Origin: a virus
Length of the DNA: 64,000 nt
Strand: one strand, 5' to 3'
IMG/VR virus record: IMGVR_UViG_3300034122_000625
Coordinates: 1-64,000 of that record
The position numbers and the translations under genes are program-made. The notes under the pieces are model-generated. The model worked only from the letters and a program-made list of their open reading frames with translations, ran no database searches and had not been told where the DNA came from. Position 1 is the stretch's first letter. The number at the start of each line of letters is the position of its first letter. Below are positions 618 through 63,819 of this stretch, one piece after another.

Positions 618-716
618 GGGGGCAATTTTCCCTGTTTCGTGTCACAAAGTCGGGGTTAATACGCTTTTGCATATAGTTTAGTTTGTTTGAACTGAATTAT
701 ATCTTTAAGCATATTG

Positions 717-843
717 TAGTCAGGACAGGATTCGAACCTGTATGATGCATTGTCTCAGAGTGGCCCCCTTACTAACGCCAACCACTCCTTAAAGGTCGGT
801 TTTGATTACATCTTTTTGCGTCTACCAATTCCGCCACCTGACT
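717..843 (-). tRNA. tRNA-Leu-like element, oversized
   Basis: The 7-bp acceptor (AGTCAGG/CCTGACT) with A73, the type II D-arm TGGCGGAATTGGTAGACGCA and a perfect T-arm (ACAGG-TTCGAAT-CCTGT) identify a tRNA-Leu body. It is 127 nt, about 40 nt longer than a normal tRNA-Leu. No ordinary 5-bp anticodon arm follows the D-arm. One reading places a TTTAAGG loop (anticodon UAA) on a weak stem inside CCGACC...GGTTGG. GATGTA/TGCATC and GAGTGG/CCACTC can also pair. It may be a tRNA with an insertion, a degenerate tRNA or a tRNA-like regulatory RNA. CCA is not encoded. Confidence 0.6.
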
Positions 844-936: not shown

Positions 937-1125
937 TTATTTGTTCTTTCCAACTCCCTTGCCCAAGATTAGGGCGAGGAGAGCAATTACTACTGCATCG
1001 TGACCAAATTTGTTGGCGGCAACCATTGCCAATGTCACAACGATAATCTTAGCGAGAACGACTCCGGTCAATTCAGAATACTCTCGCAGTCGCTTCTCTC
1101 TCTGGGTTTCTTTCAAACTATCCAT
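937..1125 (-). CDS. Small two-helix membrane protein
   Basis: This encodes 62 aa: a charged 20-residue N-terminus (KETQREKRLREYSEL) and then hydrophobic stretches (VVLAKIIVVTLAMVAANKF and VVIALLALILGKGVG). It is probably an inner-membrane hairpin with a basic C-terminus. A phage-type promoter lies at 1150-1179, 25 bp upstream. A holin-like or superinfection-exclusion role is possible but not shown. Confidence 0.6.
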   Translation of the reverse strand: MDSLKETQREKRLREYSELTGVVLAKIIVVTLAMVAANKFGHDAVVIALLALILGKGVGKNK

Positions 1126-1149
1126 TGTTTTGAATTAAGGTTTCACAAG

Positions 1150-1179
1150 TATAACGCATCTTTCATCATTTTATTGTGC
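1150..1179 (-). promoter_or_regulatory. Phage promoter (GCACAATAA-N14-CGTTATA)
   Basis: On the minus strand GCACAATAA is followed 14 nt later by CGTTATA, matching the repeated island promoter. It drives the 937-1125 gene. Unlike most copies, the upstream box here does not overlap a stop codon. Confidence 0.6.
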
Positions 1180-1190
1180 AATGTTGATAA

Positions 1191-1418
1191 CTAATCATCG
1201 TTTGTACCGATGAGACCTATGTGTCCGTCTACTTCCTTGGCTTCAGCGTAACTGATGCACTGAAACTTACCTCCGCGTTTGAACTTGTCTGTGTCCTTGC
1301 CAAGTACAACAATGTGGGGTTCTTCGCATCCCTCGACGTATGCAAGGTAGATTCGTTTCCACCACAGCATACTGCTGGGTTCACGCACCAGCACTTCCTG
1401 TCCTCTTTGAAATTCCAT
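1191..1418 (-). CDS. Small SH3/KOW-like protein, paralogue
   Basis: This encodes 75 aa. QRGQEVLVREPSSMLWWKRI and a following hydrophobic strand suggest a small beta-barrel like that at 314-556. The C-terminus is acidic. It starts one base after the stop of the 1420-1698 gene and has no promoter of its own, so it should share that transcript. Function unknown. Confidence 0.6.
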   Translation of the reverse strand: MEFQRGQEVLVREPSSMLWWKRIYLAYVEGCEEPHIVVLGKDTDKFKRGGKFQCISYAEAKEVDGHIGLIGTNDD

Positions 1419-1419
1419 G

Positions 1420-1698
1420 TCAGATACTTTTGGTTTGGTAGATAGTTACATTCTGCGTCGGAGCATCCTCCATGATGAGGCGGCGAAGGGACTGCTTCAC
1501 GAAGTCATTCATCTTCTGTGCCGCCAGTCTTGCATAGGTTGAACGTTGGGTGTACGTTCCGGTTGTCTGAGGAGATGGGAGATACAGGTCAAACCCGTAC
1601 TCTCGCCTCTCATCCCTTGCTGCTACAATAACCATGTCCATACCATCCATGATGGACTGATAGATGAACTCTTCTTGATTGGGCATTACGAACTTCAT
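1420..1698 (-). CDS. Hypothetical protein, 92 aa
   Basis: A mixed alpha/beta protein with an N-terminal strand-helix (PNQEEFIYQSIMDGMDMVIV), a central Thr/Tyr-rich segment and a basic helix (KQSLRRLIMED). No signal or membrane segment is visible. A repeated promoter-leader unit lies directly upstream (1717-1747), and the gene leads a two-gene unit with 1191-1418. Not recognised. Confidence 0.6.
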   Translation of the reverse strand: MKFVMPNQEEFIYQSIMDGMDMVIVAARDERREYGFDLYLPSPQTTGTYTQRSTYARLAAQKMNDFVKQSLRRLIMEDAPTQNVTIYQTKSI

Positions 1699-1716
1699 GT
1701 CTGTTGTTGTTTGATA

Positions 1717-1747
1717 GATTAACGTCTGATGACTTCTGATTATTGCC
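1717..1747 (-). promoter_or_regulatory. Phage promoter-leader copy
   Basis: The minus strand carries GGCAATAA, 15 nt, then CGTTAAT, followed by leader ATCAAACAACAACAG before the 1698 start. The upstream box abuts the TAG stop of 1747-1935. It is a diverged copy of the island motif. Confidence 0.55.
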
Positions 1748-1935
1748 TACTGAGGTGAATTTTCTGGGCCATACTTGATGACAAACCCATATTCAAGGTA
1801 GTCGTTCTCGCCATGCTCGCCCCATGACTCGTAGTAATGGCCATCGGCAGTGATGATAGTGACGCTGTCCCCACTGACTTCCACCCGCTTGGTGGTGGTA
1901 TCGAACTTGTGCTGGTCTACGATTTGAAAGTACAT
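1747..1935 (-). CDS. Small hypothetical protein, 62 aa
   Basis: A beta-rich acidic protein (RVEVSGDSVTIITADGHYYE) ending in SPQ. It begins 6 bases after the stop of 1942-2223 and has no promoter of its own, so it is third in a unit led by 2220-2447. Function unknown. Confidence 0.55.
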   Translation of the reverse strand: MYFQIVDQHKFDTTTKRVEVSGDSVTIITADGHYYESWGEHGENDYLEYGFVIKYGPENSPQ

Positions 1936-1941
1936 GGCTAA

Positions 1942-2223
1942 TTAGTTTTGTTGTGAGCAGTCGGGTGAGATATCGAGGATTTTGTTAGGGCTGAAGGTCT
2001 CTTGAATCTGTACGTGTGAGCAGACGATGCCGAATGGGAAGTAACCTTGTGATTCGTGCCCGTATGGCAAGGTCTCATAATAGTTTCCACTGGTGTTTGA
2101 GAGTTCAAGCCAGATGGTCTTGTCATGGTCAATCTTTTGGTTGCAACGTTCGCAACGATGGGCTGATGGACTTGCGTCCTGCTTGCTCAACTCGATGAGT
2201 TGATGCTGAATTTCGTAGTTCAT
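1942..2223 (-). CDS. Small protein with possible zinc knuckle
   Basis: About 93 aa from MNYEIQHQ. That start overlaps the previous stop as ATGA, which I prefer to the in-frame codons further upstream. CERCNQKIDHDKTIW forms a C-x2-C pair, with a Cys-Ser-His further on (FGIVCSHVQIQ), so a zinc-binding site is possible. It is the second gene of the 2220-2447 unit. A host-interaction role is a guess. Confidence 0.6.
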   Translation of the reverse strand: MNYEIQHQLIELSKQDASPSAHRCERCNQKIDHDKTIWLELSNTSGNYYETLPYGHESQGYFPFGIVCSHVQIQETFSPNKILDISPDCSQQN

Positions 2224-2447
2224 TTCAGTAAGTTCTTGTTTTTTACATAGCATCCCCATGACTTTGCTACAGGATTCCCATTGATGGTCTTCTCATAGAT
2301 GGCGACGATATCCCCATCGGCAAGGTCTGAGATGTTGTAGTATCCTCCACCACCAAAGATGCTGTGGTTGTAACCACTGACTTGCTGTCCGCTTGCAAGC
2401 ATTTCGTTGACTTGCTTCTTGCTCTTGGCTTCTACATAGATTTTCAT
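2220..2447 (-). CDS. Small hypothetical protein, 75 aa
   Basis: The start MKIYVEAKSKKQ lies just after a promoter-leader copy; in-frame codons upstream run through that promoter and are not coding. A Gly-rich turn (SIFGGGGYYNISDL) and strands follow. KSKKQVNEMLASGQQVSGYN looks like a helix-turn segment. It leads a three-gene unit. Function unknown. Confidence 0.6.
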   Translation of the reverse strand: MKIYVEAKSKKQVNEMLASGQQVSGYNHSIFGGGGYYNISDLADGDIVAIYEKTINGNPVAKSWGCYVKNKNLLK

Positions 2448-2464
2448 GGCTCTGTTGTTTGATG

Positions 2465-2496
2465 TTATAACGTTGATTGATGTCCTATTATTGTGC
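2465..2496 (-). promoter_or_regulatory. Phage promoter overlapping upstream stop
   Basis: Minus strand: GCACAATAA, 15 nt, CGTTATAA, then leader CATCAAACAACAGAGCC and ATG. GCA-CAA-TAA is also the Ala-Gln-stop end of the 2488-2763 gene. Confidence 0.65.
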
Positions 2497-2763
2497 ATCC
2501 TCTCTCTTTGCTGCAATTTCCTTCCAAATCTTATCCTCTGTGTCTCGAAGAGCATTCAATGTGAACTTGAATGGTTGCACATCGATGACATACCCCTTCC
2601 TGTTGGTGACCACCAATGTGGTCTTCCATACTTCGTACTTGGTTCCGTCTACGTTCAATACCCAATTCCTGCTACCTTCCGTGTCAAGCGTGAAGGATAC
2701 TTGTCTGCGGGTTGCTCGCTTTGAATCAACAAAGTTGAACGGCTTCTGCTGTGTGCTGTACAT
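2488..2763 (-). CDS. Hypothetical protein, 91 aa, ends DAQ
   Basis: A beta-rich basic protein (QVSFTLDTEGSRNWVLNVDG) with a C-terminal charged helix ending KREDAQ. Its last two codons and stop form the upstream box of the next promoter. It has its own promoter at 2782-2812. No family recognised. Confidence 0.6.
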   Translation of the reverse strand: MYSTQQKPFNFVDSKRATRRQVSFTLDTEGSRNWVLNVDGTKYEVWKTTLVVTNRKGYVIDVQPFKFTLNALRDTEDKIWKEIAAKREDAQ

Positions 2764-2781
2764 GATGCTGTTGTTTGATTG

Positions 2782-2812
2782 TTTAACGTTGCTTGATGAC
2801 TGCTTATTGTAC
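2782..2812 (-). promoter_or_regulatory. Phage promoter overlapping upstream stop
   Basis: Minus strand: GTACAATAA, 15 nt, CGTTAAAC, then leader AATCAAACAACAGCATC and ATG. The 15-nt spacer is identical to that of the next copy at 3017-3047, which points to duplication. Confidence 0.65.
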
Positions 2813-2998
2813 TCGCTTCAAAATTTTTCCTTCGTAATTCAGGTAACCTTTCTCAATAAGCATTGTTGCTGTCCTGCCGTAGTGACCTTGCAGTGACCAA
2901 ACCAAACCGGAACGAATTAGTCCCGAGAATAGTTCCAATACGTCATTCGCATCTCCTTCGCCTGACTCGTAGGCAATGATTTTGCTTGTCAATTCCAT
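2804..2998 (-). CDS. Small protein with LQGHYGRTA motif
   Basis: 64 aa, starting at MELTSKIIAYESGEGD directly after the leader. The codons upstream read through the promoter and are not coding. WSLQGHYGRTATMLIEKGYL is, from memory, a signature of small phage proteins of unknown function, with an acidic helical N-terminus. It ends KRVQ, whose codons contribute to the next promoter. Confidence 0.7.
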   Translation of the reverse strand: MELTSKIIAYESGEGDANDVLELFSGLIRSGLVWSLQGHYGRTATMLIEKGYLNYEGKILKRVQ

Positions 2999-3016
2999 TG
3001 TTCTGTTGTTTGATTG

Positions 3017-3047
3017 TTTAACGTTGCTTGATGACTGCTTATTGTGC
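3017..3047 (-). promoter_or_regulatory. Phage promoter overlapping upstream stop
   Basis: Minus strand: GCACAATAA, 15 nt, CGTTAAAC, then leader AATCAAACAACAGAACA and ATG. The box doubles as the Ala-Gln-stop of the short gene at 3039-3197. Confidence 0.65.
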
Positions 3048-3197
3048 GTCTTCGATAAAAACTTCATCACATACCCACTTCTTTGTTCGCGCCATGTAGG
3101 CAATGAAGTTGTCCATGTGCTTCTCGTCGGTGAAGGTCTTGTTCTTGATGCAGACCTTGCGCCCATCGAAGTTCCAGAATTCAATTGTTGCTCTCAT
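3039..3197 (-). CDS. Short hidden gene, 52 aa, ends DAQ
   Basis: The protein begins MRATIEFWNFDGRKV and ends CDEVFIEDAQ. Its ATG shares a base with the TAA stop of 3197-3457, so it is coupled to that gene. The terminal GCA-CAA-TAA matches the other island genes, which supports the frame. It is basic with Trp/Phe, possibly a small beta-hairpin-helix fold. No function assigned. Confidence 0.65.
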   Translation of the reverse strand: MRATIEFWNFDGRKVCIKNKTFTDEKHMDNFIAYMARTKKWVCDEVFIEDAQ

Positions 3198-3457
3198 TAG
3201 TTTGCGATGCTTTGGGTGTACAACTGCTCGACATACACATCTCCGTACTCATTGACTGCGACATAACCACCTAATGCAAACCCAATCTCGTCCATCACTT
3301 CGTGCATTTCCTCTGCGTAGTCATCTGATGTTGCATCCAAATCCATCGCGATGATGAATTGATGGAATGTACACAGGATGATGTAGTCGGTCTGTGCCAG
3401 CATCCCTGCAATCGTCTTCACTCGGAAGACCTTGTTGAATCTCTCAATTGTATTCAT
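3197..3457 (-). CDS. Hypothetical helical protein, 86 aa
   Basis: Mostly helical, with a hydrophobic core (MLAQTDYIILCTFHQFIIAM), an acidic middle (DATSDDYAEEMHEVMDEIG) and a C-terminal strand pair. It is preceded by a diverged promoter-leader copy (3475-3505) and followed without a gap by 3039-3197. Not recognised. Confidence 0.6.
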   Translation of the reverse strand: MNTIERFNKVFRVKTIAGMLAQTDYIILCTFHQFIIAMDLDATSDDYAEEMHEVMDEIGFALGGYVAVNEYGDVYVEQLYTQSIAN

Positions 3458-3474
3458 AACTCTGTTGTTTTGTG

Positions 3475-3505
3475 TTTAACGTCGGTTGGTTTGTGCTCAT
3501 TGCGT
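3475..3505 (-). promoter_or_regulatory. Diverged phage promoter-leader
   Basis: Minus strand: ACGCAATGA, 15 nt, CGTTAAAC, leader ACAAAACAACAGAGTT and ATG. The box would be the end of a six-codon frame (MKHSTQ-stop), perhaps a relic of a lost gene. Confidence 0.5.
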
Positions 3506-3552
3506 AGAATGTTTCATGGGCGAATGTTTTTTAGTTTGTTTAACAATCTCAT

Positions 3553-4032
3553 TTACTTAAGGTAGATGCATTCCTGCATCCGGCAGTCATAGATGGCTCG
3601 CTGCTTGTTCGCAAGGCCCAGCAGGATGGCGGATTCTCGGTCAGGAACGTTCACGCTGACATCTGCAACGACCTTCCCTTTCTCAATCCACAATCCAATG
3701 TACAGATTCACTTCGGTGTGCCAATAAACCTTTATGATATTTGAATGCATCTCTGCCATCAGACCTTCAACATCGCTCTTCATGTCAGTGAGTGAGATGA
3801 ACTTGCTGCTCTCTTGCAATTTCACTCCTGCGTAGTTACCCTTCAGGCTGACCATGTACCCATCTTTGGCCGATGACTCCAAGTATTTCAAATCGCTTGG
3901 GATGTCCGGAGCCAATTCTTTCTTTACATACTTCCAAAGTGGGTCAAAGGCTACCTTCACGCTCGCTCCATTGTAATCCTTCAGTGACTGCAATGCGTAG
4001 TCAACTGCTTCACTCCAATTCATGTTGTTCAT
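3553..4032 (-). CDS. Hypothetical protein, 159 aa
   Basis: The largest gene of the accessory island. The N-terminal half is helical (WSEAVDYALQSLKDYNGASV). The C-terminal half has strands (VNLYIGLWIEKGKVVADVSV) and ends CRMQECIYLK. No signal peptide is seen. A typical promoter-leader copy is upstream at 4050-4081. No family recognised. Confidence 0.65.
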   Translation of the reverse strand: MNNMNWSEAVDYALQSLKDYNGASVKVAFDPLWKYVKKELAPDIPSDLKYLESSAKDGYMVSLKGNYAGVKLQESSKFISLTDMKSDVEGLMAEMHSNIIKVYWHTEVNLYIGLWIEKGKVVADVSVNVPDRESAILLGLANKQRAIYDCRMQECIYLK

Positions 4033-4049
4033 GGCTATGTTGTTTGATG

Positions 4050-4081
4050 TTATAACGTCGGTTGCTGTTCAGTTATTGTGC
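4050..4081 (-). promoter_or_regulatory. Phage promoter overlapping upstream stop
   Basis: Minus strand: GCACAATAA, 15 nt, CGTTATAA, then leader CATCAAACAACATAGCC and ATG. The box is the Ala-Gln-stop of 4073-4297. Confidence 0.65.
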
Positions 4082-4297
4082 GAATTTGAATGCGATGAGA
4101 TGTTTTAATGCTGAATCTTTGTCCGCATGGATGCTTGTGTGCAGATGGTCTAAGTCATCGTCGTAGATGTTCAACGCGAAGTCAACGTCTTGGTCTACGA
4201 TATCGACGATGTATGGCGTTCCATCCTTTGTCGTTACATCGAACAAAATACACCCTGCAATTTGTGCAACTGGTTGAATGCTTGCCGTCTGATTCAT
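4073..4297 (-). CDS. Hypothetical protein, 74 aa, ends FAQ
   Basis: The start is MNQTASIQPVAQ after the leader; the longer reading passes through the promoter. It is an acidic alpha/beta protein (DGTPYIVDIVDQDVDFALNI) ending KFAQ, whose codons form the next promoter box. Function unknown. Confidence 0.6.
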   Translation of the reverse strand: MNQTASIQPVAQIAGCILFDVTTKDGTPYIVDIVDQDVDFALNIYDDDLDHLHTSIHADKDSALKHLIAFKFAQ

Positions 4298-4315
4298 GTT
4301 TCTGCTGTTTGATTG

Positions 4316-4346
4316 TTTAACGTCGGTACTTGCTCTGTTATTGTGC
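4316..4346 (-). promoter_or_regulatory. Phage promoter overlapping upstream stop
   Basis: Minus strand: GCACAATAA, 15 nt, CGTTAAAC, then leader AATCAAACAGCAGAAAC and ATG. The box is the Ala-Gln-stop of 4338-4547. Confidence 0.65.
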
Positions 4347-4547
4347 ATCCTCCCATTCTATGGTGATATTTTTTGTGGGCCTATAGGGATAATTTCCTCC
4401 CCGATTAGACATCTCCACCATCTCCATTAGTTCGCTGCCGTTGCGAAGATGCAGATAGCCACATGAATAGCGGACAAAGGATGCTGCTGTGCCGGCGCAA
4501 TCGAATGTGCCTACGACTCCTGCTGTGGTGCTGACGATGAATTTCAT
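4338..4547 (-). CDS. Hypothetical protein, 69 aa, ends DAQ
   Basis: The start is MKFIVSTTAGVVGTF after the leader. It is a small beta-rich protein with two cysteines (DCAGTAAS and RYSCGYL) and a tail ending WEDAQ. The last codons form the promoter box of the next gene. No family recognised. Confidence 0.6.
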   Translation of the reverse strand: MKFIVSTTAGVVGTFDCAGTAASFVRYSCGYLHLRNGSELMEMVEMSNRGGNYPYRPTKNITIEWEDAQ

Positions 4548-4565
4548 GATGCTGTTGTTTGATAC

Positions 4566-4596
4566 TATAACGCTGTGCTGTTTCCTGTTATTGTGC
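4566..4596 (-). promoter_or_regulatory. Phage promoter overlapping upstream stop
   Basis: Minus strand: GCACAATAA, 15 nt, CGTTATAG, then leader TATCAAACAACAGCATC and ATG. The box is the Ala-Gln-stop of the short gene at 4588-4740. Confidence 0.65.
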
Positions 4597-4740
4597 GTCC
4601 TTGAAAATATTTTCAATCTCTTTCCGCTGTGCATCCTGATGCGCGGAGATGAAGTGAACTACAACGTATGCGATGGCGATGGTGATGACTGCTCCTTGGA
4701 TGCCGAGGATGATGGTGCGGATGAATTCTTTGTTGTTCAT
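4588..4740 (-). CDS. Short hidden membrane protein, 50 aa
   Basis: It begins MNNKEFIRTIILGIQGAVIT and has one hydrophobic helix of about 24 residues (ending in IAIAYVVVHFI) and a charged tail ending IFKDAQ. It starts after a promoter-leader (4759-4789), and its final GCA-CAA-TAA matches the island rule. It is probably a single-pass inner-membrane protein. Function unknown. Confidence 0.65.
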   Translation of the reverse strand: MNNKEFIRTIILGIQGAVITIAIAYVVVHFISAHQDAQRKEIENIFKDAQ

Positions 4741-4758
4741 GACTCTGTTGTTTGATTG

Positions 4759-4789
4759 TTTAACGTCGGGTTGTTTCGGTTTAGTATGC
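4759..4789 (-). promoter_or_regulatory. Phage promoter, diverged upstream box
   Basis: Minus strand: GCATACTAA, 15 nt, CGTTAAAC, then leader AATCAAACAACAGAGTC and ATG. The box overlaps the Ala-Tyr-stop end of 4781-4996. Confidence 0.6.
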
Positions 4790-4996
4790 GAAGTCGTTGG
4801 TCAGGTAGTCAAGTGCCCATCTTTTGTTGTCAAATGGGTAGTGATGGACCGTATCGTCGTTGGCATCGTACACCACTAAACCCCACCACTTTCCGCATTC
4901 CGAATGTTCGAGTTTCGCTGTGAAGGTTGAGCCCCCACATTGGACGATGTACTTGTAGTAGCCGGGGTGCTTGTAAGTGCAGGTGACCTTGTTCAT
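4781..4996 (-). CDS. Hypothetical protein, 71 aa
   Basis: This is the promoter-proximal gene of the left arm. I start it at MNKVTCTYKHPGYYKY: the in-frame ATG at 5069-5071 lies inside the promoter, so that longer reading is rejected. It is rich in Tyr, His and Trp with two cysteines (TFTAKLEHSECGKWWGLVVY), suggesting a small beta fold. Function unknown. Confidence 0.6.
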   Translation of the reverse strand: MNKVTCTYKHPGYYKYIVQCGGSTFTAKLEHSECGKWWGLVVYDANDDTVHHYPFDNKRWALDYLTNDFAY

Positions 4997-5053
4997 CTTG
5001 TTTTTTGTTTGTGTTTCTATTTGACCCGGTGCTGTGTGCCCCGTTCCTGCACC

Positions 5054-5082
5054 TATAACGCCATTGCTCATCCTTATTGTAT
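5054..5082 (-). promoter_or_regulatory. First leftward phage promoter
   Basis: Minus strand: TACAATAA, 13 nt, CGTTATA, at the edge of the control region. It is the first copy of the island promoter and has a longer, different leader (about 57 nt). Confidence 0.5.
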
Positions 5083-5236
5083 GTCCACATGGGAATTAAC
5101 ATCCGTTAACATATGGCCATCCCCAATCAGACATGGCACCCGCGCGTAACGCGCGCGAACGCAGCACGAGGAATATTATTGTGTCTGGGGAGATTTTTTT
5201 TTCTGAGGGTGAAAATGGGGGGGAGACCATCCGAAC

Positions 5237-7835: not shown

Positions 7836-8336
7836 TTAGTGCCACCCGACGCGGTACTTGCCGCTGAGCTCGTTTTTCGTTGTGGGGCTGTACACTTTCT
7901 GAGAAGTACCCATAAGGTTGGCGGTAGCAAACAGGTAGACCGTTTTTCCATCCGAAAAGCAGAACTTGTTCAAGTTGGCCATTTGGTATGCGAGGAGCTT
8001 GCCTGTGAACTTGTTACGCAACTCGAAATGGTAGATGCCAAGCCCGTCCAACAAGAAGACTCCGTAGAAGGTGCCATCTGACGGTGCAGCCACATGACGC
8101 AATGAGTCCTTAGATGCTTGGATGAAGGCGTCGTCGATACCGCACCGCACAGCTCTCTCTTCAAAAGACTTCCAGTCATATCGACCGTTGTCCACCCACA
8201 CTTCCCATACAAGCGAGTCGTTGTATACGGACGAGTGCCAAGGGTTGTGAGGCAGGTTTACACAGATTTCAAATTTCATCTGAGCTTGAACGTGGGTTGC
8301 TGAGATGAGGGAGACGGCTACAAGGAACTTCTTCAT
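7836..8336 (-). CDS. Secreted or periplasmic moron protein
   Basis: 166 aa with a clear signal peptide: MKKFLVAVSLISATHVQAQ has a lysine n-region, hydrophobic core and A-x-A-like cleavage site. The mature part is beta-rich with cysteines (CVNLPHNPW, AVRCGIDD and NKFCFSDG). It lies on the opposite strand within the rightward arm and has its own phage promoter and leader (8355-8384), the layout of a moron. A host-surface or exclusion role is inferred. Confidence 0.65.
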   Translation of the reverse strand: MKKFLVAVSLISATHVQAQMKFEICVNLPHNPWHSSVYNDSLVWEVWVDNGRYDWKSFEERAVRCGIDDAFIQASKDSLRHVAAPSDGTFYGVFLLDGLGIYHFELRNKFTGKLLAYQMANLNKFCFSDGKTVYLFATANLMGTSQKVYSPTTKNELSGKYRVGWH

Positions 8337-8354
8337 GTGTGTGGTGTTTGACTC

Positions 8355-8384
8355 TATAACGCAGAATTTCGTAAATTATTGTGT
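8355..8384 (-). promoter_or_regulatory. Phage promoter of the moron
   Basis: Minus strand: ACACAATAA, 14 nt, CGTTATAGAGTCAAAC, then a CA-rich leader and ATG. It has the same motif as the accessory island but sits 3.3 kb away, inside the rightward arm. Confidence 0.65.
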
Positions 8385-42199: not shown

Positions 42200-43612
42200 A
42201 TGGCTGAATATCAAGGTTATATAGCTCCACTGGCTCAATCCCAGAGCTACTCTGATGCTCTTCAGGCTCGTATGGATGTCATACGACAGCAACAAATGCA
42301 GAATATGCAACTGTTGCTTGACGCTCAGAACAAGCGGGATGCTATGACGACTCAACAGCTTGAGAAGCTGTACAGCCTGCGTACCAATGGTTGGGGGGAG
42401 AAACCTATAGAGGCTTTTGCAGCACAGAGAGATAAGTTTGCTGAAAAACTAAAGACCAATCAGTATACTGACCAAGCATCGTTCTTGGCTGACTTAAGCA
42501 AACTTGCTGACACCCATGCTGCGTACTCGTCTCATTACGAGACCACAAATCCTGTAATAAGACAGACTCAGCAATACGTGGCTCAGCCGGGTTTATACCC
42601 AGACAAAACCATGAAGGTTACTGAGAATGTAGAGACACTTACTCAAAAGATGGGGCTACAGAGGAATCTCGGTATAAGTAGTTTTAGTGTTTCTGACGAC
42701 GGAAGTATTCAGTATTTAGGTGCAGATAACAGACCGTTAGACATATCTGCCGCTATGAATCCTGCTACATATCTACCAAAGGTGGAACCAGTGTTTGTCC
42801 ATCCAATGCAACTATCTAATGAATTTACAACCCTTTACCAAAAGGCATTAGAGAACGGAAAAACTGGTAACGCATTCATTGCAGATGTGCTCCCGAGTCT
42901 TACGACTAAAGTCATCGAAGACCCATCGTTATCGTCTTCAGCTCGAACATACTATGTGAGTGTTAATGGAACAGACACTATTCCATCAGACGAAAAATCA
43001 GAAGGCGAAACCGATGAGCATTACTACGCCAGACACTATGCTGAGGCAGGGTTGGCTACATTTAGGAATACCAAAAAAACGTATGCCCCCACGAGTGGCG
43101 GAGGCAGGACAAGTGCAACAACTGCCTCAACAAAACAACCGGCTATAATGGATGTAGGGGTGAGAAAAGGGGAGGGTCCTTCAAGGAGCTATACAAATTT
43201 AGGTGCATTGGGGGGCTACGGCGGTAAACCAAACGAACAGTATTATCAATATAGTTTTCCGAGTGTTGTGTCCAAAGTGAACTTAGCTTCCTTCCTTGCT
43301 CCAGAAGCAAAAGCGGAGATAGGTGATGATTTGAGTTTTGACATTAAGACTTTACGCTTTACTGAGAACGGATATATGGTTCTTCCGAATGTAAGTATAG
43401 GAGCTAAGCAAGTTGGCGACGTATACATAGGAGCAGACAGTCATGTTTATAGTGAAATAAGCGCCGCATTGAAAAAGGAATACGGTTACGACATAACCCA
43501 ATGGACTAACGGAAGTGTATACAGCGTTATACAAGGGCAAGCCTCTGGTGTTCCTCAAACCACTCAACCGGGTGCAGGTACAGTTATAAAATTCAACGCA
43601 ATTGTACAATGA
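42200..43612 (+). CDS. Putative internal/ejection protein, 470 aa
   Basis: A Gln-rich coiled-coil N-terminus (YSDALQARMDVIRQQQMQNM, LDAQNKRDAMTTQQLEKLYS) with an extended Ser/Thr/Gly middle and beta-like C-terminal part. Context with 41250 and 43609 suggests the second ejection protein. No enzyme motif. It overlaps the next start as ATGA. Confidence 0.55.
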   Translation: MAEYQGYIAPLAQSQSYSDALQARMDVIRQQQMQNMQLLLDAQNKRDAMTTQQLEKLYSLRTNGWGEKPIEAFAAQRDKFAEKLKTNQYTDQASFLADLSKLADTHAAYSSHYETTNPVIRQTQQYVAQPGLYPDKTMKVTENVETLTQKMGLQRNLGISSFSVSDDGSIQYLGADNRPLDISAAMNPATYLPKVEPVFVHPMQLSNEFTTLYQKALENGKTGNAFIADVLPSLTTKVIEDPSLSSSARTYYVSVNGTDTIPSDEKSEGETDEHYYARHYAEAGLATFRNTKKTYAPTSGGGRTSATTASTKQPAIMDVGVRKGEGPSRSYTNLGALGGYGGKPNEQYYQYSFPSVVSKVNLASFLAPEAKAEIGDDLSFDIKTLRFTENGYMVLPNVSIGAKQVGDVYIGADSHVYSEISAALKKEYGYDITQWTNGSVYSVIQGQASGVPQTTQPGAGTVIKFNAIVQ

Positions 43613-46600
43613 ACGAAAATTATCAACAGCTATACGGATACCTGTCCCAAAATGGGTTGACAGACCTTAGTTCCGATGAGTTTTATAATTCGTACTCGTC
43701 CAATAAAGCGAATTTCAATCAACTATACGCATATCTGGCGGAGAACAAGATGACAGACTTGGGGGCGGACGACTTCTACGCCGCATACTTCGAGCCCCCT
43801 GCTGGTGCGAAAAAAAAAAGTCAATCTTCTCCGTCATATACTCCACCTTCGAGAGGGTACTTGCCGGGTGATGAGCTCGTTCGTCAGATAGCAGAGGCTC
43901 CTTCTGAGCCTGTATACCCTAACGTTCGTAGGGCTCAAGTGGTTCGTCAGATGCTTGAGAACACCACCCTGCTTGACGTAGACCAAAATGTGCTTCAGTC
44001 TTATGGACTTGACGAGTCTGACTGGAGAACGGCACAGGTGGCTTACGCCCTTGATAACACAGAGCAAGACGTTCAGGTAGCCTCTCAGGCTATTCAAGAC
44101 AGGAGTTATGAGCAGGCTTTGGCTGAGGCCAAGTTGAAGGCTCAGGAGGCGTTTATCCCTCAGTTGCTGAAGAATACGTTCCCTAACTCGCCGAATCTGT
44201 TCCGCGCTGCCGAGTGGTTGTTTGAGCCGCAATATGGGCCAATGGGGAATGCTACGGCAGACTTCATGCTCGAACTTGTAGACTCTTCTGTTAGAGCCGT
44301 AGCTGGAGGATTAACCACCAACGATGCAGCAACGGAGGCTTTTAATGTGTTTGCTGAGAAGGGTGTTGGCCTGTCCAGAGAGTCTACAGACAGACTCTAC
44401 AATGCTGTAACGGCGGCTCAGGGCTTTCAGGAGCGCTATGGACAGTCTGAGAGTATGTTGGAGTGGAGCGCTGAAATAGAGGAGGCTAAGAGGAATGGGG
44501 ACAGCGAGCTGCTTGCAGCCCTGTTTGCTACAGCTAAGAACCCTATGGTTCTCCCTGAGATTATGGTGAACTCATACGCCAGTGTATTTAACAAGGCCTC
44601 TATCGCTGCTGCGGCTACTACTACAGGTGGATTTATAGCCGGTGGTGCCGGTGCCGGTGCTGTTGGAGGGCCTGCGGGTGCAGCTGGGGGTGCCTTGGTG
44701 GGTGCAGCTTCAAGTGTGCCTTGGGCTATGGGTGCAGCCTTTACGGCTCTTGAGGTGGGTATGACATTCCCTGAACTTGTCAGGGCTGAGATGGAGGAGC
44801 GCGGTATGGAGTTCAACAAGGAGAACTTCTACGCTGCACTGAATAACGACGAGATATATAACTCCGCTTTGGCTCGCTCTGCTGCTCGTGGTACAGCTAT
44901 CGGTGTGGTGAGTGCTCTCGGCGCAAGAGCGGCGACACAGGTGTCTAAGAACCTCGCCAATAGAGGTATGAGCTCTGTAGGCAGAACGTTCTCTGTTGCA
45001 CCTATAGAGATGGGGGCTGGTTTCAGTGGTGAGGTATTGGGTCAGGCGGCTGGTGGGCAGGAGATAGACCTTGCAGAAGCTACTATGGAGGGGCTTGCTG
45101 AGATAGGCATGGCCCCAGTTGCTGTAGCTGGTGCATACGCTGAGGACTTGGCGGCTAAGAAGCCGAAGTACAAGGTCGGCACGAATACCGTTGGTAGAGA
45201 GGAGATAGAGCGTGTGGTTACGGCAGCAACTCCTGAGGAGTTGAAGCAGATGTCGCTGACGGTAGAGAATGATAGTGAAATGGAAGCTCTTATCGACGAT
45301 AAGATGTTCCGCTCAGAGATTGCTGACAGAGTTCCAGAGACGCTTGGCTCTGAGGACAGAAGACGCATCATCAACCTTGAGGCAGAGAAGAGACAGATTC
45401 AGAACAGAAAGACTGACTCCTTCACGGGCACTGAGGGTGCTATGGCTATAGCTGGCAAGGAGCGTGTTGCTCAGATAGACGAGGAGATTTATGGCATCAT
45501 GAATCCAGCCCCAGAGCCTCTGCAACCTATTACTCTGGACATTGAGCCCATCGCAACGCCTGAGATAGTCACCGAGCCTGCCCCCACATTAGAGCCTGTC
45601 TTTGTGGCCGACTTGGTCAATAGACCTGTTACACTTACCTCTCACAACGGAACACTGCTTGAGACTCCTGTGCAGGGTGACCTGTATGTAGATGGACAGA
45701 CTGTAGTTGTTGAATCGGCAGACAGGATATACGAGATTGGCAATGTGTCTGAACTTAATGAGCAGGACTCAAGGGCCTTGGGTATAGAGCCTCAGGTGGA
45801 GACTGTTGTCGTTCAGGCTGATGAGTCTCTGGTCATCGAGAATGAAGAGTTCTTGATTCAGAGAGACCTCCCCACGATGGGTATAGACTACGATGCCGAT
45901 GGTAACGTCACAAGGGTTAGCCTTGAGAGTAAGAAAGACGGCTCGAAGAAAATGTTCTCTGGTCAAACGGCTATCGACGCAGCATATCAGATACTTTTGT
46001 CCAAAGCCGAGTCACCAGAACAGATTGACCGTATAGACAAGATACTTGAACAAGATGAAGAATACAAAAGACTCCACGACGAGTACGTCGCCAAAAAGCT
46101 CGCAGAGCGGGATGAAAAACCTCGAGAAGCTGCGGCAGCTCCCCAAGCAAGACCAGATACGGATACTGGCGCGAGTGCTAAGCCAAGCGAATCAAAACCA
46201 GTAGCCAAGCCTGAACCTAAGAAAACCCCTCCACTTAAAGAGAAGGAGGCGCCTCAGCCTAAGCCTGCCAACAAAGTTGTAGACAGATTGACCCGTCTGT
46301 TGTCTATAGAGACAGACCCAGTTCGTATGTCCAGCCTTGTGGCTCAGTTGGAGCAGGCGGCAGCTATGGGTGTCGTGTTGCCTGAGAAATCCGCCAAGGA
46401 GTTGAGAGAGGCAAAAGAACAGCTTGAGGCAGGTGGTTATGTCTCTGAGACGCCACAGGTAGGTTCTGACTATGACCCCAATACCACGGATGAGGTTGTC
46501 ATGGTTACGTCAACTGAACTGCCAGCAGGTCAGAAGAAGGTTGTATCTGTCACTCGTCCCAGAGTTACGCAAAACGGACGGGTGAAGCAGTCTGCCAAGT

Positions 46601-49600
46601 TGGTGGTTGCTGTAGGCACAGCCGACCCTACTGCGCTTTCTACAGGCAGGGCGCGTGGAGAGCTTGAAACCCTCAGCAATCCTCGAAACACAAAACAGCT
46701 TCAGTCTACATACGAGAAACTGTGGGGTATGACCCCAGAGAAAGCAAAGGCGGCAGCAGCCATATCTGACAAGATGATTGGTACTATGGCCGCAAGGCAC
46801 GGTATCAGCAAGAAGGATATGTACGCTCGCATTAAGTGGGTGAAGTCTAAGAGTGTGGATGCAAACGGCAACTCTGTCCCGGATACTGACGGACCGGTAG
46901 TAAGGTTTCAGGCCAGAATAGAGGACAGTAAGCGAGGTATAACTATGCAGTTCTTTGCCGGTGGCCCCGAATTAGAGCAACGGAAGCAAGATGGCAACCT
47001 TGATGACAATGCGCCACTATCTACTATATACGACAAAACTGGTGTCCTTTTTCATACCCCTGATAAGGCGGGTGGGTTTATTATATCTAAGGACGGAAAA
47101 AATATTGTAGAGGGACAGGGTGGTATGTACTTCCCTCTTCTCCCGGGTTTCTTTGAAAACAGATACTTCTGGGCTTCCACAGAAGGCGCGGCTAATGGAA
47201 TGGCTGATTCCCTTAATCGGGCCGCTCAGATGTCTAAGGACGGAAAGGTTAGGATGGTGCTGGTGAGCACAAACTTAAACAAGTTGTCTGGGGGTTCTGG
47301 TATAAACCAAGGGTTGGTGCGTATGCTTCAATCTTTTATGGAAGATAAGAAGTTTCCGCTTCTCCAGTCGGACGTGAAGTCCATTTTGATTGCAGCAAAC
47401 GCAGCCCTTGGAAGGCCTCCAGCAGGAAAACCGGATGGCCCCAGAGCTGTTTTGAATGCTGACGTAAAAGGAAGCATGAATGTAAAGCAGATAATTGATG
47501 TAATCTTAGATAAACTGTCTCCAGAAAGTAGTTCTTTTCCAGACAGATGGGCGTTTTTTGAAGGTGTTGCTATGGGTTTAAGCAAAGTTGCCTCAGAAGA
47601 CCCTAAAAAAAAGAAGGCCATTGTGGAGCTGTTGAACACCATCTCAGGTCTTGAGGAGTGGGGCCCAAAGAAAAATCCAAAGAAGAAGCTGTTTAAGAAA
47701 GACGTTCTGGTGGCCCTTCACTCAGCGTTTTCTGAACCTGTCTTAAGAGTAGTAGGCGACTCGTTGGATACAGACAAGAAACTGGGGACAAACAATGAAA
47801 GGGTGTATGCTGTTATAGAGGCCGATGTAAATCCAGATGACCCAGCAAACACCTTCGAAGCTATATCACCAAAATACGAGGGTCTTCCAGAGCACGCATC
47901 ATATCCTCGCGTAATAAGGCTTGTCAATCAAGACGCCAGAACTACCGTTCGCATTCTTAACGAAAGGGCTCCTTGGTATAACTTAGCCATAAATCCAGCT
48001 ACAGGCAGGACGCCTGAGGAAAACGAAAGGCTGAAGATATTCCCGTTTGGATTCACAAATAATCCGCTGTCTACTACATCCATATCGGAAGACCCGACGG
48101 ATGTAAATCTGATTCCTCTGACGTCCTCTGCAATTGATACTAAGGCTGTTACAAAAAATACAAAGGCAGAGGTTGACAGAATAAAGGGGTTGCCTGAGAA
48201 TGAAGAGGATGGGGCTACGTTTAATAATGACGGAACTAAGCTGGAGTTGGCTCAGGGCGCTATTGTGCCTGTTGCATCATTTAACACTACGCAGGAGGAA
48301 CTTACTCCTGAGATGATTTCTGAGTTCTTAGATTCTATGAGAGGTGTGTTTTCTACTCAGACCGTAAGGTTTGGGTTGTACAAGTTCCCTGACTCCACCA
48401 AGGTTTCCATAGACATAAACATTGTAGTTGACGAAAACAACAGAGACGAGGCTATAAAGTTTGCCAGATACGCTGGTCAAAAGTCTGTGTTTTTTATGTC
48501 AGACTTCAGTACGGCTGAAACCGGGGCAAGCGGAAAAAACCCCAAGACCTTTAGCATAGAACAGTACGCCGAGATTGCTCGCAGGCTTGAAGACGGCACA
48601 ATAGACACGTTTATTCAGGGCAACAACCCGTACTCGCTTCCAGAAGAAATTTCAGATGTTCTTACAGATGACGGCAATGGCAATTACGTCTTTAGGCACT
48701 ACTCAGAGGAAAGGCGAGATGTCATCAAGCCCGGCTCCGGACAAAACATTAGGACTTCGAGAGATGAGGCATCTGCAATAGGTTCTGTTGGCGGGCTGGC
48801 AATGTACTACGTTGACGATTCAAGAGACGTGGGTGGCAATGTGCCTCATATAGTAAAAGTCCCTAAGGATAAGGTTTACTACTACAATGAAGACGCCTTA
48901 GACTTTTTTTCTGAAGCAAAAAAGAGGTATAGCGAAAGGACTGGGCTTAGGAATTTCTTGAATTACAATCAAGAGCTCGCTTGGATTACAAAGGTTGCTA
49001 ATGAGAGAGGCTTTGAGATGGTAATCAGTGAGTGGAGTGTTGGTAATGCCAAGCTAAGGGCTCAGACCACCATGACTCTTGAGCCTATCGAGGGCGACTT
49101 TGAAATGAACTCCAACAAGAGGACGCCGCCAAACATCGTAAAGGGCGACAACATATTGATAGATGGCTACAGATACGTTGTCGTCAATTCACAAATCATT
49201 AACGGTCGGCGTGAGATAGAGTACACCAACACCAGTCTAAGTAACACACAGAAACAGTTTGTGGACCTGATGGTTGATGGAAATGGGAATCCCAACGTCA
49301 CCCGCAATAGATTTACCTACGAAGTCATAGACGCCAACGGCAATGTCGTTCGTCAAAACAAGGGTCAAGTTTACTTCCAAGACCAACGCGCTGCTATTGT
49401 TATGAGCGGCACAGAGGCTGTTATTCACGCTATCTCCAACCCAGACGTAACTTCCCCTCTCCACGAACTTGCTCACCTGTATGAGCAGGTATTGACTGAC
49501 GAGGAGAGACAACAGATTCTCGATTGGACAGGGCAAGAGCAATGGAATGGTGATACGTCAGAAGCTTTTGCCGAAGGATTCGAGAAGTTCCTGTATGAAG

Positions 49601-54352: not shown

Positions 54353-54353
54353 C

Positions 54354-59996: not shown

Positions 59997-59997
59997 C

Positions 59998-60726: not shown

Positions 60727-60795
60727 GATGTGAAGGGTCAGGAGGATGCCAATGATGATGACATTCTCAATGATGCGTCCGATGTCAAACTTCAT
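60700..60795 (-). CDS. Tiny membrane protein, 31 aa
   Basis: MKFDIGRIIENVIIIGILLT and then LHILITNFLYN: one hydrophobic helix with a short charged N-terminus. The ATG overlaps the 3' end of the PD-(D/E)XK exonuclease gene by 11 nt, and it precedes the SSB start. The frame is too short for ordinary gene calling. Position in the operon supports it. Confidence 0.5.
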   Translation of the reverse strand: MKFDIGRIIENVIIIGILLTLHILITNFLYN

Positions 60796-61573
60796 ATTCG
60801 ATGTAGTCTTTGCGTGGGTCTTCCCCGTTTTGTAAAAAGTCTGTGATTCTCTTGATGGCCCCCCGGAACTTCATCTCGCCACGGAATAGGGTCTCCTCTG
60901 AGCAGGTTACCACGGCGGGAAGATACGGGAAGGTTTTCTCCTGTGCAACCCAGTAGAACTTATTGATACCCTCTGACTGCGTGTATAGGTAAGCCTGAAC
61001 ATCGTAGCAGAGTCCGTTTACGTCATACCGGAATCCGGAGACGCTGCGTGTAGACTTGCTATCCATGATGAAGTCTTCGCCTCGGCAGTCGATGAAACCC
61101 TTGACGAGCACACCTTCAATCTCCTTGTACACTGGCTTCTGATACTCACCACTGAAATACTTCTCGATGATGCCTGCCTCTGACAGCCGCTCCACCATCT
61201 TGTTAGCCATATCCCAGTCCTCTGGGTTGCATACAATCTCACCGCGCTCGGTCATCTCAGATATGATGGCTGCCTTCACCTCCTTGAACTCGTTGGTCAT
61301 CGACGGCGACTTCGCCTCCTGAGTCTTCAAGGAGCATCGTTCCAAGATGTAACCATTGTCCAAGATGCGATAGGTAGTCATGGCCTTCTTGCGGTCAAAG
61401 AGGAGCATATCGTACATCGTGCCGAAGTCTAAGGCATCGGACTTGTACTCGATGTCTCCGCGCATATACGCATCGAACTTAGCCATGTCATCCATAGCCT
61501 GCTTGATGCTGGAGTAGGAGAGGTGCGGCTTACCATACCGCTCCTCAAGGGCTTTTGATAGGTTGAATTTCAT
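60785..61573 (-). CDS. PD-(D/E)XK exonuclease (RecB/RecE-like)
   Basis: 262 aa. DALDFGTMYDMLLFDRKKAM (conserved G-x-x-x-H-like helix region), GVLVKGFIDCRGEDFIMDSK (D and D-x-K, the strand pair GxxDxxxx-xxDxK) and YDVQAYLYTQ (Q-motif helix) identify the PDDEXK_1-type exonuclease. Paired with ERF it forms a two-component recombination system, resecting 5' ends for annealing. Confidence 0.85.
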   Translation of the reverse strand: MKFNLSKALEERYGKPHLSYSSIKQAMDDMAKFDAYMRGDIEYKSDALDFGTMYDMLLFDRKKAMTTYRILDNGYILERCSLKTQEAKSPSMTNEFKEVKAAIISEMTERGEIVCNPEDWDMANKMVERLSEAGIIEKYFSGEYQKPVYKEIEGVLVKGFIDCRGEDFIMDSKSTRSVSGFRYDVNGLCYDVQAYLYTQSEGINKFYWVAQEKTFPYLPAVVTCSEETLFRGEMKFRGAIKRITDFLQNGEDPRKDYIEYEV

Positions 61574-62181
61574 CGGATGAACTTTTTCAGCGCGGTCTTC
61601 TGTGCCTCGGTCAACTGCCCCCCGTAGTGAGTCATGACGTTGTCGTATGCCTTCTGACGATTGGTCTGCGACTTCATGTAGTTCACAGCCTTATCCATGA
61701 TGGATGCACCTGTGGATGGTTGAGCCTGTTCCTCCTGCTCCGGCTGAGGTGCAGCCTTGGTGGGCTTGGCCTTTGGCTTCTCTTCCGTCTGCCCGTGGGT
61801 GTTGGTACCATCGCTGTCCTTGGTGTCATCGATAAGGAAGAGCCCGTTGAGAGCGTACTTACGAGCGTAAGACGATGAAGCCCCTGTGATTTGGCTACCA
61901 TCCATGCCCTTCTTGTCCTCCTCCTCTCGTGCCCATCCACTGACAGTGATTGAGTGCTGACCATCAGACAGCGTAGCCTGAGTGTGTACATAAACACGCT
62001 CTCCGACAAACTGAATCGAGTCGCTCATCACCAGCGTCACCTCGTGCTTCTTGAGCAACGGCTTGACAGCCTCGAAGATGTCTTCGCAACTCCGGTACTT
62101 GTACTTGCCGAAGGCATTAAACTGCCCCTTGGGGGCCTTTAGTTCTGACTGAATCGCCAGAAGTTTTGAGTTGATACTCAT
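61570..62181 (-). CDS. erf: ERF-family single-strand annealing protein
   Basis: 203 aa from MSINSKLLAIQSELKAPKGQ; an upstream TTG runs through the promoter and is rejected. NAFGKYKYRSCEDIFEAVKP is the ERF signature (Y-x-Y-R), with VYVHTQATLSDGQHSITVSG, SYARKYALNGLFLIDDTKDS and a Pro/Glu linker to a C-terminal helix. It anneals ssDNA, often with the exonuclease next to it. The phage promoter at 62217 lies 36 bp upstream. Confidence 0.9.
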   Translation of the reverse strand: MSINSKLLAIQSELKAPKGQFNAFGKYKYRSCEDIFEAVKPLLKKHEVTLVMSDSIQFVGERVYVHTQATLSDGQHSITVSGWAREEEDKKGMDGSQITGASSSYARKYALNGLFLIDDTKDSDGTNTHGQTEEKPKAKPTKAAPQPEQEEQAQPSTGASIMDKAVNYMKSQTNRQKAYDNVMTHYGGQLTEAQKTALKKFIR

Positions 62182-62216
62182 GGTTGATTGAATTGTGGGT
62201 TGCCCCTGATTTACTC

Positions 62217-62246
62217 TATAACGCAAGACCCTCGAAATTATTGTGC
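62217..62246 (-). promoter_or_regulatory. Phage promoter of the recombination genes
   Basis: Minus strand: GCACAATAA, 14 nt, CGTTATAGAGTAAA. Same motif as the island; GCA-CAA-TAA is again the Ala-Gln-stop end of the preceding gene (MazG). It has an extended leader before the ERF start. Confidence 0.65.
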
Positions 62247-62790: not shown

Positions 62791-62972
62791 CAGTACCTAC
62801 TGAACTTTACAAACATGAACTGAAACTCCATGTACTTCCGTCCGTTTAAGGCGGCGATGTATGTGAACGAGAGCAGTGCTCTGGGGCCAAACTGAAGGCC
62901 ACCAAGTTCCACGACTGAGAACTTGAATGTTCTCTTGGACACCTCTAAGTCAAGCAAATCGAAGTAAATCAT
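62790..62972 (-). CDS. Hypothetical protein, 60 aa
   Basis: MIYFDLLDLEVSKRTFKFSV, QFGPRALLSFTYIAALNGRK: beta-rich, hydrophobic and basic. Overlaps 62581-62790 by one base and the DnaA-like gene by four. Function unknown. Confidence 0.55.
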   Translation of the reverse strand: MIYFDLLDLEVSKRTFKFSVVELGGLQFGPRALLSFTYIAALNGRKYMEFQFMFVKFSRY

Positions 62973-63580
62973 TGTACTATTTTTTTGTTAATGGCTTCTC
63001 TAATGACCTCGTTGATGGCATCAGTCGGACTCTCCCCTGACTGAATCTTAGACAACACTTCATCGAACAACTGAGCCTTCTCTTTGGTGAAGTCATCCTT
63101 GATGACATCCATGACTATCTTCTTAGGGCTCACATTCTGTATCAAGTCCTTCTGCGCTCTCAAGTACCTTACCCAGTCATCGTTTTCTGACTTTGGTGCC
63201 TCCAATGAATCGGCGAACGGCATTGTACTCATCACCAACTTGGCTGCCTCGTACACCTCTCTGTATCCCTTCCAATACTCAAGATTGGACTCATGATTCC
63301 TGCGGTGGTGAATGATTGTGGCGTGGTGCTGCCCCATGCAGTCCGCTACGTCGATGATTCGGAATCTGTTTGTCAGGGCGCATCCAATTGCAGCGCGAGC
63401 CTTAACTGATTCAGACATCCGGCTGTTGTCGCGTGGCTTCCCTGTTCGATTGTAGAACTCGTCGAGGGTGCTGTTTATCATGTTCTTCAGCACTCGCTTC
63501 CACATGACACGGCTGTATCCTTCTACAATGTCGTTTATCAGGAGGACATTCTTTTGGCTTAAAATGGTGTTCTGTTCCAT
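62969..63580 (-). CDS. DnaA C-terminal-domain-like protein
   Basis: 203 aa from MEQNTILSQKNVLLIND. RMSESVKARAAIGCALTNRF and VADCMGQHHATIIHHRRNHE resemble the DnaA domain IV signature (A-R-x-x-A...L-x-x-x-x-G-x-x-D/H-H-x-T-V/I-x-H). No AAA+ ATPase region is present. It may bind the phage origin or a host DnaA-box. The C-terminus is helical. Confidence 0.6.
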   Translation of the reverse strand: MEQNTILSQKNVLLINDIVEGYSRVMWKRVLKNMINSTLDEFYNRTGKPRDNSRMSESVKARAAIGCALTNRFRIIDVADCMGQHHATIIHHRRNHESNLEYWKGYREVYEAAKLVMSTMPFADSLEAPKSENDDWVRYLRAQKDLIQNVSPKKIVMDVIKDDFTKEKAQLFDEVLSKIQSGESPTDAINEVIREAINKKIVQ

Positions 63581-63819
63581 TACTCTGCGTCTTTGTGTTT
63601 CATGATGAAGATTCCGTCTCCTGCACGAGCCACGATGTACTCTACACCATCGTGTGTGTACGACATTACATCCAACTCGCTGGTGTTCTGCCTCGTTCGT
63701 TCTTCTGCCTTCAGGTATGACACCACTTGTGCGGCGGTGAAGATTAAGGAGATGCACATAATCGCTAACGTAAAGGTCGCAAGATTATTGCGTACCGAGT
63801 CAAGAAGTTTTTCGCTCAT
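63580..63819 (-). CDS. Membrane protein, 79 aa
   Basis: An N-terminal helix (LDSVRNNLATFTLAIMCISL, then IFTAAQVVSYL) followed by a charged, beta-like cytoplasmic or periplasmic tail (DVMSYTHDGVEYIVARAGDG). Coupled by a TAATG overlap to the DnaA-like gene. Function unknown. Confidence 0.6.
   Translation of the reverse strand: MSEKLLDSVRNNLATFTLAIMCISLIFTAAQVVSYLKAEERTRQNTSELDVMSYTHDGVEYIVARAGDGIFIMKHKDAE

Follow-up and report, generated by a model that had tools for sequence, protein, structure and literature searches.

A two-box module, most likely a promoter, repeated ahead of small early genes in uncultured podovirus-like phages

Introduction

Why does a run of small, dissimilar genes in an uncultured phage carry the same short sequence ahead of each gene or gene pair, and what reads it? 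The question is raised by the window, the whole stretch of DNA analyzed here, which comprises 64,000 of the 65,190 bases of one IMG/VR virus record (IMGVR_UViG_3300034122_000625). Its terminase is 46% identical to that of MW202828 and 40% identical to those of the Flavobacterium elemo phages, its primase is 35% identical to that of Maribacter phage Panino, and by these two proteins we place it as a podovirus-like phage, probably of Bacteroidota. The plus strand carries virion genes, and the minus strand carries primase/helicase, exonuclease, ERF, and MazG-like genes together with an island of small genes; the minus-strand genes are called early here by analogy. The repeated element is a module composed of an [A/G]CACAATAA box, a spacer of 14-15 nucleotides (nt), a CGTTA box, a short A-rich leader, and ATG. 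This module is real and widespread, and judging from its sequence it is most likely a promoter. We give a probability of about 0.7 to the reading in which it would be an early promoter with a leader, serving single genes, and also a seam of gene exchange.

Little is known about transcription in phages of Bacteroidota, and the module provides what would be a precise promoter motif across at least five uncultured phage groups. It marks small early genes that are candidates for host-takeover functions. It also makes single-gene exchange visible in sequence, with the promoter as the seam and the stop codon inside: any two modules can recombine and leave the genes intact. Finally, it raises the question of what reads such an early promoter, which does not resemble those that the main sigma factor of the host uses, when no sigma factor or RNA polymerase could be detected in the phages themselves.

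The Module and Its Copies

The initial annotation had listed 13 minus-strand copies, and all 13 CGTTA boxes are found where it placed them (Table 1). The spacer between the two boxes measures 13-15 nt, as claimed, and 15 nt in most island copies. A GCACAA box assigned to the copy at 3475 does not hold, being off the conserved spacing; a degenerate ACGCAATGA has the correct one, and likewise the upstream box at the right spacing in copy 4759 is a degenerate GCATACTAA. The annotation hinged on the motif being more frequent than in shuffled sequence, which it is: GCACAATAA-N12-16-CGTTA matches the window seven times, on the minus strand in every case, and has no match in 100 dinucleotide shuffles. 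The looser CAATAA-N12-18-CGTTA has 13 matches in the whole record, again all on the minus strand, and none in the backwards control. A weight matrix trained on other phages only, with the window left out, finds 15 minus-strand sites in the window and none on the plus strand or in the reversed sequence. These are the 13 copies already listed, a CGTTC variant at 5185, and an uncertain site within an open reading frame (ORF) at 63794. All 15 lie ahead of early or small genes. The shuffles, the reversed controls, and the independent matrix together rule out a chance origin.

Where the spacing is 15 nt (nine copies), CGTTA does not vary (100%), the leader is 79% identical, and the upstream box 75%, with identity falling to 47% in the spacer and to 29% and 27% in the upstream and coding flanks. 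Spacer and leader are exactly alike in the neighboring modules 2812 and 3047, which suggests a recent copying event between them.

The overlap between the upstream box and the stop codon of the preceding gene is confirmed, since the TAA of the box ends seven genes. Six proteins do end in Ala-Gln (GCA-CAA-TAA; genes 62238-62588, 4588-4740, 4338-4547, 4073-4297, 3039-3197, and 2488-2763), and gene 2804-2998 ends in GTA-CAA-TAA. All six use GCA-CAA, while in the early genes GCA accounts for 60 of 136 Ala codons and CAA for 39 of 92 Gln codons. Homologues of these proteins have other C-termini, not Ala-Gln. By the measure of codon choice, this exclusive GCA-CAA and the different ends of the homologues show a constraint acting on DNA and not on the peptide, and they rule out a protein-level reason for the Ala-Gln ends. 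The fusion to the stop had been seen as the essence of the module; this part falls away, because at most sites in other phage groups the box does not supply the stop codon of the gene before it. The fusion is thus an economy, made easy by an element that contains TAA. As the initial annotation had noted, the coding sequences (CDSs) share no real similarity with one another. They are not all orphans, and 2804-2998 encodes a DUF7417 protein (E 3e-23). This small minus-strand gene product occurs in many otherwise unrelated phage contigs.

Distribution Among Phages

A motif search over related phages, proposed with the initial annotation and now run, finds the module arrayed one per gene in uncultured podovirus-like phages of at least five groups. 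We call these lineages A (the window), B (L241, L480/L502), C (L242, L245, L452, L459, and others), D (L240, L470, L475), and E (L474, L479, L485). The terminase, portal, other virion genes, and primase are common to the motif-bearing groups, which otherwise differ in genes and leaders, the latter being ATCAAACAACAG in A, AACACACACAG in B, TTACTATAGAA in C, ATAAAACAAACACACC in D, and ATATAAAACAAACA in E. More broadly, the motif stands ahead of genes in many virus contigs, with a backwards control of about 0. One contig of 15,484 bases (G424, L504) has four motif sites in mirror-image copies and is probably an inverted-duplicate assembly. Between CGTTA and ATG there are mostly 20 nt in lineages A and B, 18-19 nt in D and E, and 7-50 nt in C. 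Across the five groups this distance ranges over 6-50 nt, and the spacer sequence varies as well, but the boxes stay 14-15 nt apart. This constant spacing amid variable surroundings fits an element of DNA with two boxes, not one that binds ribosomes.

Many nearer relatives do without the motif: among 26 whole or partial records related by primase or ERF, none has more than one site, and arrays were not found in the examined parts of elemo phage and Panino. In a primase tree A, B, and C cluster (82/73), and D and E lie too far off to be placed; the trait changes at least once, and most simply three times. Across 396 Bacteroidota genomes, a set that may not include the true host, the motif is not enriched (19 matches vs. 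18 in the control), which rules out a general host promoter. Contigs in GTDB with a related primase belong to metagenome-assembled genomes labeled Ekhidna, Sphingobacteriales, and Maricaulis, a weak hint as to the host.

Other repeats take the same place in motif-free relatives. MW202828 (L505 = 43000-60850) has 14 copies of a perfect 16-bp palindrome, GTGTCGTTAACGACAC, from 746 to 12155 of L505, at least seven of them 15-55 nt ahead of annotated early-gene starts. Contig L318 has five copies of a near-palindrome, GTCCACCTAGTGGAC, at 2126, 2796, 3210, 4227, and 6525. Like the module, GTGTCGTTAACGACAC is repeated ahead of many small early genes and is followed by an A-rich leader to ATG; unlike it, it is a palindrome without the CACAATAA box. 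The arrangement in which each early gene has its copy of a repeat thus recurs with different sequences.

Gene Shuffling at Modules

That single genes are exchanged as cassettes had been proposed from the window, and crossovers within modules are indeed seen between two lineage B relatives, L241 and L502. Their aligned blocks in the region are 72-98% identical, with single-gene differences, and the alignment is broken at modules. At the L241:2624 module, the end of the upstream gene and the spacer are as at L502:11195, and the downstream gene is the one after L502:12567, so that 1,372 bases are absent or inserted relative to L502, with the crossover in the leader. The modules at L241 994 and 1356 are each hybrids of two L502 modules, and in the latter the crossover falls in the upstream box or spacer. 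Two more L241/L502 junctions, 583 and 3089, are at gene starts where no module can be recognized.

A Probable Promoter for Single Early Genes

Each module would provide a promoter and a translation leader to a single small early gene or to a pair. The [A/G]CACAATAA box would act as a -35-like element and CGTTA as a -10-like one at a fixed spacing of 14-15 nt, the start point would fall about 6-9 nt past CGTTA, and transcripts would start within the A-rich leader. Compact genomes would let the TAA of the upstream box end the gene before it. The modules would also be seams at which single-gene cassettes are lost, gained, or put in a new order through homologous recombination, for which the ERF and exonuclease of the phage itself are plausible agents. 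The reader would most likely be the host RNA polymerase with a non-primary sigma factor, similar to those of the extracytoplasmic function (ECF) type, or with an unrecognized phage factor. The boxes, their placement and recurrence, the crossovers of the one pair, and the DNA-level constraint at the stop overlap are seen in the sequences; promoter activity, start site, early timing, and recombination agent are what we infer.

The distance from GCACAA to CGTTA is 17-18 nt, the geometry of a sigma70-family promoter. The A-rich leader, as the initial annotation supposed, is of a type that Bacteroidota ribosomes favor: in F. johnsoniae, A at -3, -6, and -12/-13 helps initiation, and the module leaders fit this preference (PMC6847099). 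The further claim of a Bacteroidota-style promoter is not supported. The primary sigma factor of F. psychrophilum reads TAnnTTTG (PMC9723704), and such a box at -7 is found in no module, although there are minus-strand matches elsewhere. It is the late genes that carry it, with TATATTTG-type boxes in their gaps: 7 of the 20 plus-strand TAnnTTTG lie in the 1,389 noncoding nt of 48,240 (2.9%). These boxes are probable late promoters, some just 4 nt from ATG. Since the late gaps hold TAnnTTTG and the modules do not, the module would form a separate promoter class. What it has in common with the primary-sigma promoters of Bacteroidota is the short distance to the gene and the A-rich leader (PMC9723704). 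Another likeness is to SM6, a minor class of F. psychrophilum promoters with a CGT box at -10 that is attributed to ECF sigma factors (PMC9723704): the module also has CGT in the -10 region, as CGTTA at every site but one (CGTTC), and its two boxes are 17-18 nt apart. We tentatively propose, at somewhat under even odds, that several groups of Bacteroidota phages use one promoter class for their early genes whose reader is not the primary sigma factor of the host but a specificity of its own kind, either an ECF sigma factor of the host or an undetected phage factor. Late genes would use primary-sigma-like boxes, and the modules would also be exchange seams with a built-in stop.

Several points weigh against a single-gene early promoter that doubles as a seam. 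AAC in the -35 region is a criterion for ECF sigma promoters, and it is absent from the [A/G]CACAATAA consensus. Because the exact motif is not enriched in the 396 Bacteroidota genomes, a host sigma factor with precisely this preference would not be in general use. Profile searches of the phages with Sigma70_r2 and r4_2 gave no match above cut-off, and the DxDGD motif is in no long ORF, so that a phage sigma factor or RNA polymerase was not detected by these means; a search for the single-subunit RNA polymerase family also found nothing in the phages, and its controls were silent, which makes it uninformative. As for the seam, modules coincide with 63 of the 177 alignment edges in ten pairs of relatives, and random rotation gives 17.6 (sd 4.1). 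This enrichment is partly expected and biased upward because the modules are more conserved than the surrounding genes. The ten pairs are not independent, and the hybrid junctions, on which the shuffling claim therefore rests, come from one pair. Shuffling is shown for that pair, and other relatives are consistent with it.

The promoter sequence fits no nameable class. Matches to E. coli-type sigma70 promoters are fewer in the island than in shuffles. An SP6/T7-like promoter, which we take CACTATAGAA of lineage C to resemble, was dropped as A, B, D, and E lack CACTATAGAA and no polymerase was found. The N4-type hairpin promoter was set aside too, spacer stems being confined to lineage C and their arms variable.

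Alternative Explanations

A first alternative concerns the reader and is a sub-case of the promoter reading: a specificity factor or RNA polymerase made by the phage or delivered with the virion, too divergent to be detected. The motif is phage-specific and common to distant groups, and large virion proteins of 1505 and 2945 aa lack enzymatic annotation. Yet no polymerase or sigma signature was found, and near relatives have the core genes but not the motif, suggesting a reader outside the core. We found no regulator exclusive to the motif groups, which have in common core virion genes, the primase, and a DnaA-like helix-turn-helix (HTH) protein (not found in D). This conserved early protein is related in sequence to DnaA domain IV (E 5e-4 to 1j1v) and is a candidate DNA-binding factor common to A, B, C, and E. 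On balance, a phage-made reader is possible but on the unlikely side.

The two boxes could instead be an operator for a phage repressor or silencer, like the stoperators of cluster A mycobacteriophages, and not a promoter. The many copies in a single orientation and in short gaps would fit this, as would the operator-like gene-start repeats of relatives (GTGTCGTTAACGACAC in MW202828, GTCCACCTAGTGGAC in L318) and TTAACATCCGTTAACA, which adjoins the boxes in lineage C. An operator-like 15-mer of the window, TTAACATCCGTTAAC, also adjoins boxes in lineage C (L242 8229, 8601, 10041, and 11355) and has one exact and one near copy in lineage B (L241 453 and 2148), with no further exact copy in the stretches searched. 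The element is nevertheless asymmetric, strictly spaced at 14-15 nt, and always upstream of a coding-strand start. No repressor or integrase was recognized among the families listed, in a search that was not exhaustive, and the island shows no other evident promoter consensus. An operator is therefore improbable.

Slightly less probable still is an element that acts in RNA, as an antitermination, processing, or translation signal within one long early transcript. The copies all sit between genes and on the strand that is transcribed, and in lineage C 10 of 41 spacers contain inverted repeats with stems of at least 4, against a shuffled mean of 1.7. In A, B, D, and E, though, the spacers are unrelated and show no stem excess, the distance to ATG varies while the box spacing is constant, and terminators in the island are not above chance. 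In the lineage C spacers (L242, L245, L374, L452) the arms themselves differ, for instance CCAGA-AAG-TCTGG, GACAGCTGTC, and AGAAG-CC-CTTCT.

Least likely of all, and by a reading we consider very doubtful, the modules would be kept as recombination seams and not for expression: crossovers do fall within them and the phage carries an ERF and exonuclease pair, but the same boxes and spacing persist despite unrelated spacers and leaders, which a homology seam would not need, and single copies outside the island also precede genes.

Features of the Window

Table 1. Module copies and other features of the window, with putative functions.
Feature	Position	Strand	Remarks
Module at island head	5056..5082	-	ATACAATAA-N13-CGTTATA; ATG 59 nt on (gene 4781-4996)
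Module before gene 4588-4740	4741..4789	-	degenerate GCATACTAA (stop of 4781-4996)-N15-CGTTAAAC, leader ATCAAACAACAG
Module before gene 4338-4547	4548..4596	-	GCACAATAA (stop of 4588-4740)-N15-CGTTATAG, leader ATCAAACAACAG
Module before gene 4073-4297	4298..4346	-	GCACAATAA (stop of 4338-4547)-N15-CGTTAAAC, leader
Module before gene 3553-4032	4033..4081	-	GCACAATAA (stop of 4073-4297)-N15-CGTTATAAC, leader
Module before gene 3197-3457	3458..3505	-	degenerate ACGCAATGA-N15-CGTTAAAC, leader
Module before gene 2804-2998 (DUF7417)	2999..3047	-	GCACAATAA (stop of 3039-3197)-N15-CGTTAAAC, leader
Module before gene 2488-2763	2764..2812	-	GTACAATAA (stop of 2804-2998)-N15-CGTTAAAC, leader
Module before gene 2220-2447	2448..2496	-	GCACAATAA (stop of 2488-2763)-N15-CGTTATAAC, leader
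Module before gene 1420-1698	1699..1748	-	AGGCAATAA-N15-CGTTAATC, leader; first bases overlapped by TAG stop of 1747-1935
Module before gene 937-1125	1126..1179	-	GCACAATAA-N14-CGTTATAC, divergent leader
Module before gene 7836-8336, outside island	8337..8384	-	ACACAATAA-N14-CGTTATAGA-GTCAAACACC
Module before ERF annealing protein gene	62182..62246	-	GCACAATAA (stop of MazG-like gene 62238-62588)-N14-CGTTATAGA
Extra variant copy upstream of island	5157..5184	-	ACACAATAA-N14-CGTTC
Extra uncertain copy within ORF 63580-63819	63766..63793	-	ACGCAATAA-N14-CGTTA
Island of about 15 small early CDSs	937..4996	-	module precedes each CDS or pair
Operator-like 15-mer TTAACATCCGTTAAC	5096..5110	+	just upstream of the first putative island promoter
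TAnnTTTG boxes, mostly TATATTTGC	9580, 14205, 18369, 22981, 27328, 34106, 41238	+	in tiny late-gene gaps
PDDEXK exonuclease (DUF3799, exonuclease VIII-like)	60785..61573	-	ERF partner
ERF-family single-strand annealing protein (PF04404)	61570..62181	-	possible agent of module-to-module recombination
Conserved early protein with DnaA domain IV-like HTH	62969..63580	-	shared DNA-binding candidate, lineages A, B, C, E

Two further features were seen. A 2,945-aa protein (43609-52446, plus strand) with an LPD38 domain at its C-terminus is probably an ejected virion protein. A tRNA-Leu-like sequence of about 127 nt (GGTGGCGGAATTGGTAGACGC ... GGTTCGAATCC; 716-842, minus strand) has acceptor ends that pair; ARAGORN and Rfam make no call there, and it is perhaps an interrupted or decayed tRNA.

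Comparison with Known Systems

The promoter early stem-loop (PeSL) cassettes of T4-type phages were reportedly described by Arbiol et al. in 2010 and by Comeau et al. in 2014. As PMC4503421 describes them, PeSLs are early-promoter cassettes that mediate gene shuffling. The statement that the module has no described equivalent thus goes too far, as these cassettes and the start-associated sequences (SAS) and extended SAS (ESAS) of cluster K mycobacteriophages are close to it in concept (PMC4503421, PMC3203893, PMC11373665). The module motif itself was not found described in the open-licence literature searched. Like PeSLs, the modules are repeats between small variable genes that are shuffled by recombination, their promoter activity and timing being what we infer. 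The gain, loss, and reordering of genes at cassettes typical of PeSLs has its counterpart in the hybrid modules and the edge enrichment. A PeSL joins a promoter to a stem-loop terminator; the module instead has no stem-loop. It differs further in its non-canonical promoter sequence, its conserved translation leader, the stop inside its upstream box, and its occurrence in an unrelated, podovirus-like group.

The likeness to SAS and ESAS is of another kind. They too come in a dozen or more copies in one orientation, at non-structural genes only, just upstream of the starts of different gene families, and they are not found in the host; ESAS holds a putative promoter, and stop codons can lie inside SAS/ESAS (PMC3203893, PMC11373665). 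SAS, however, is a 13-bp Shine-Dalgarno-like element, GGGATAGGAGCCC, lying 3-7 nt from the start, whereas the module has no Shine-Dalgarno element, a different sequence, and a CGTTA box mostly 20 nt from ATG in the window. ESAS combines a 17-bp inverted repeat with SigA-like hexamers, whereas the module alignment shows no such repeat and both its boxes are non-canonical. The idea is thus a known one, and the module, which differs in motif, host group, and reader, belongs to neither family.

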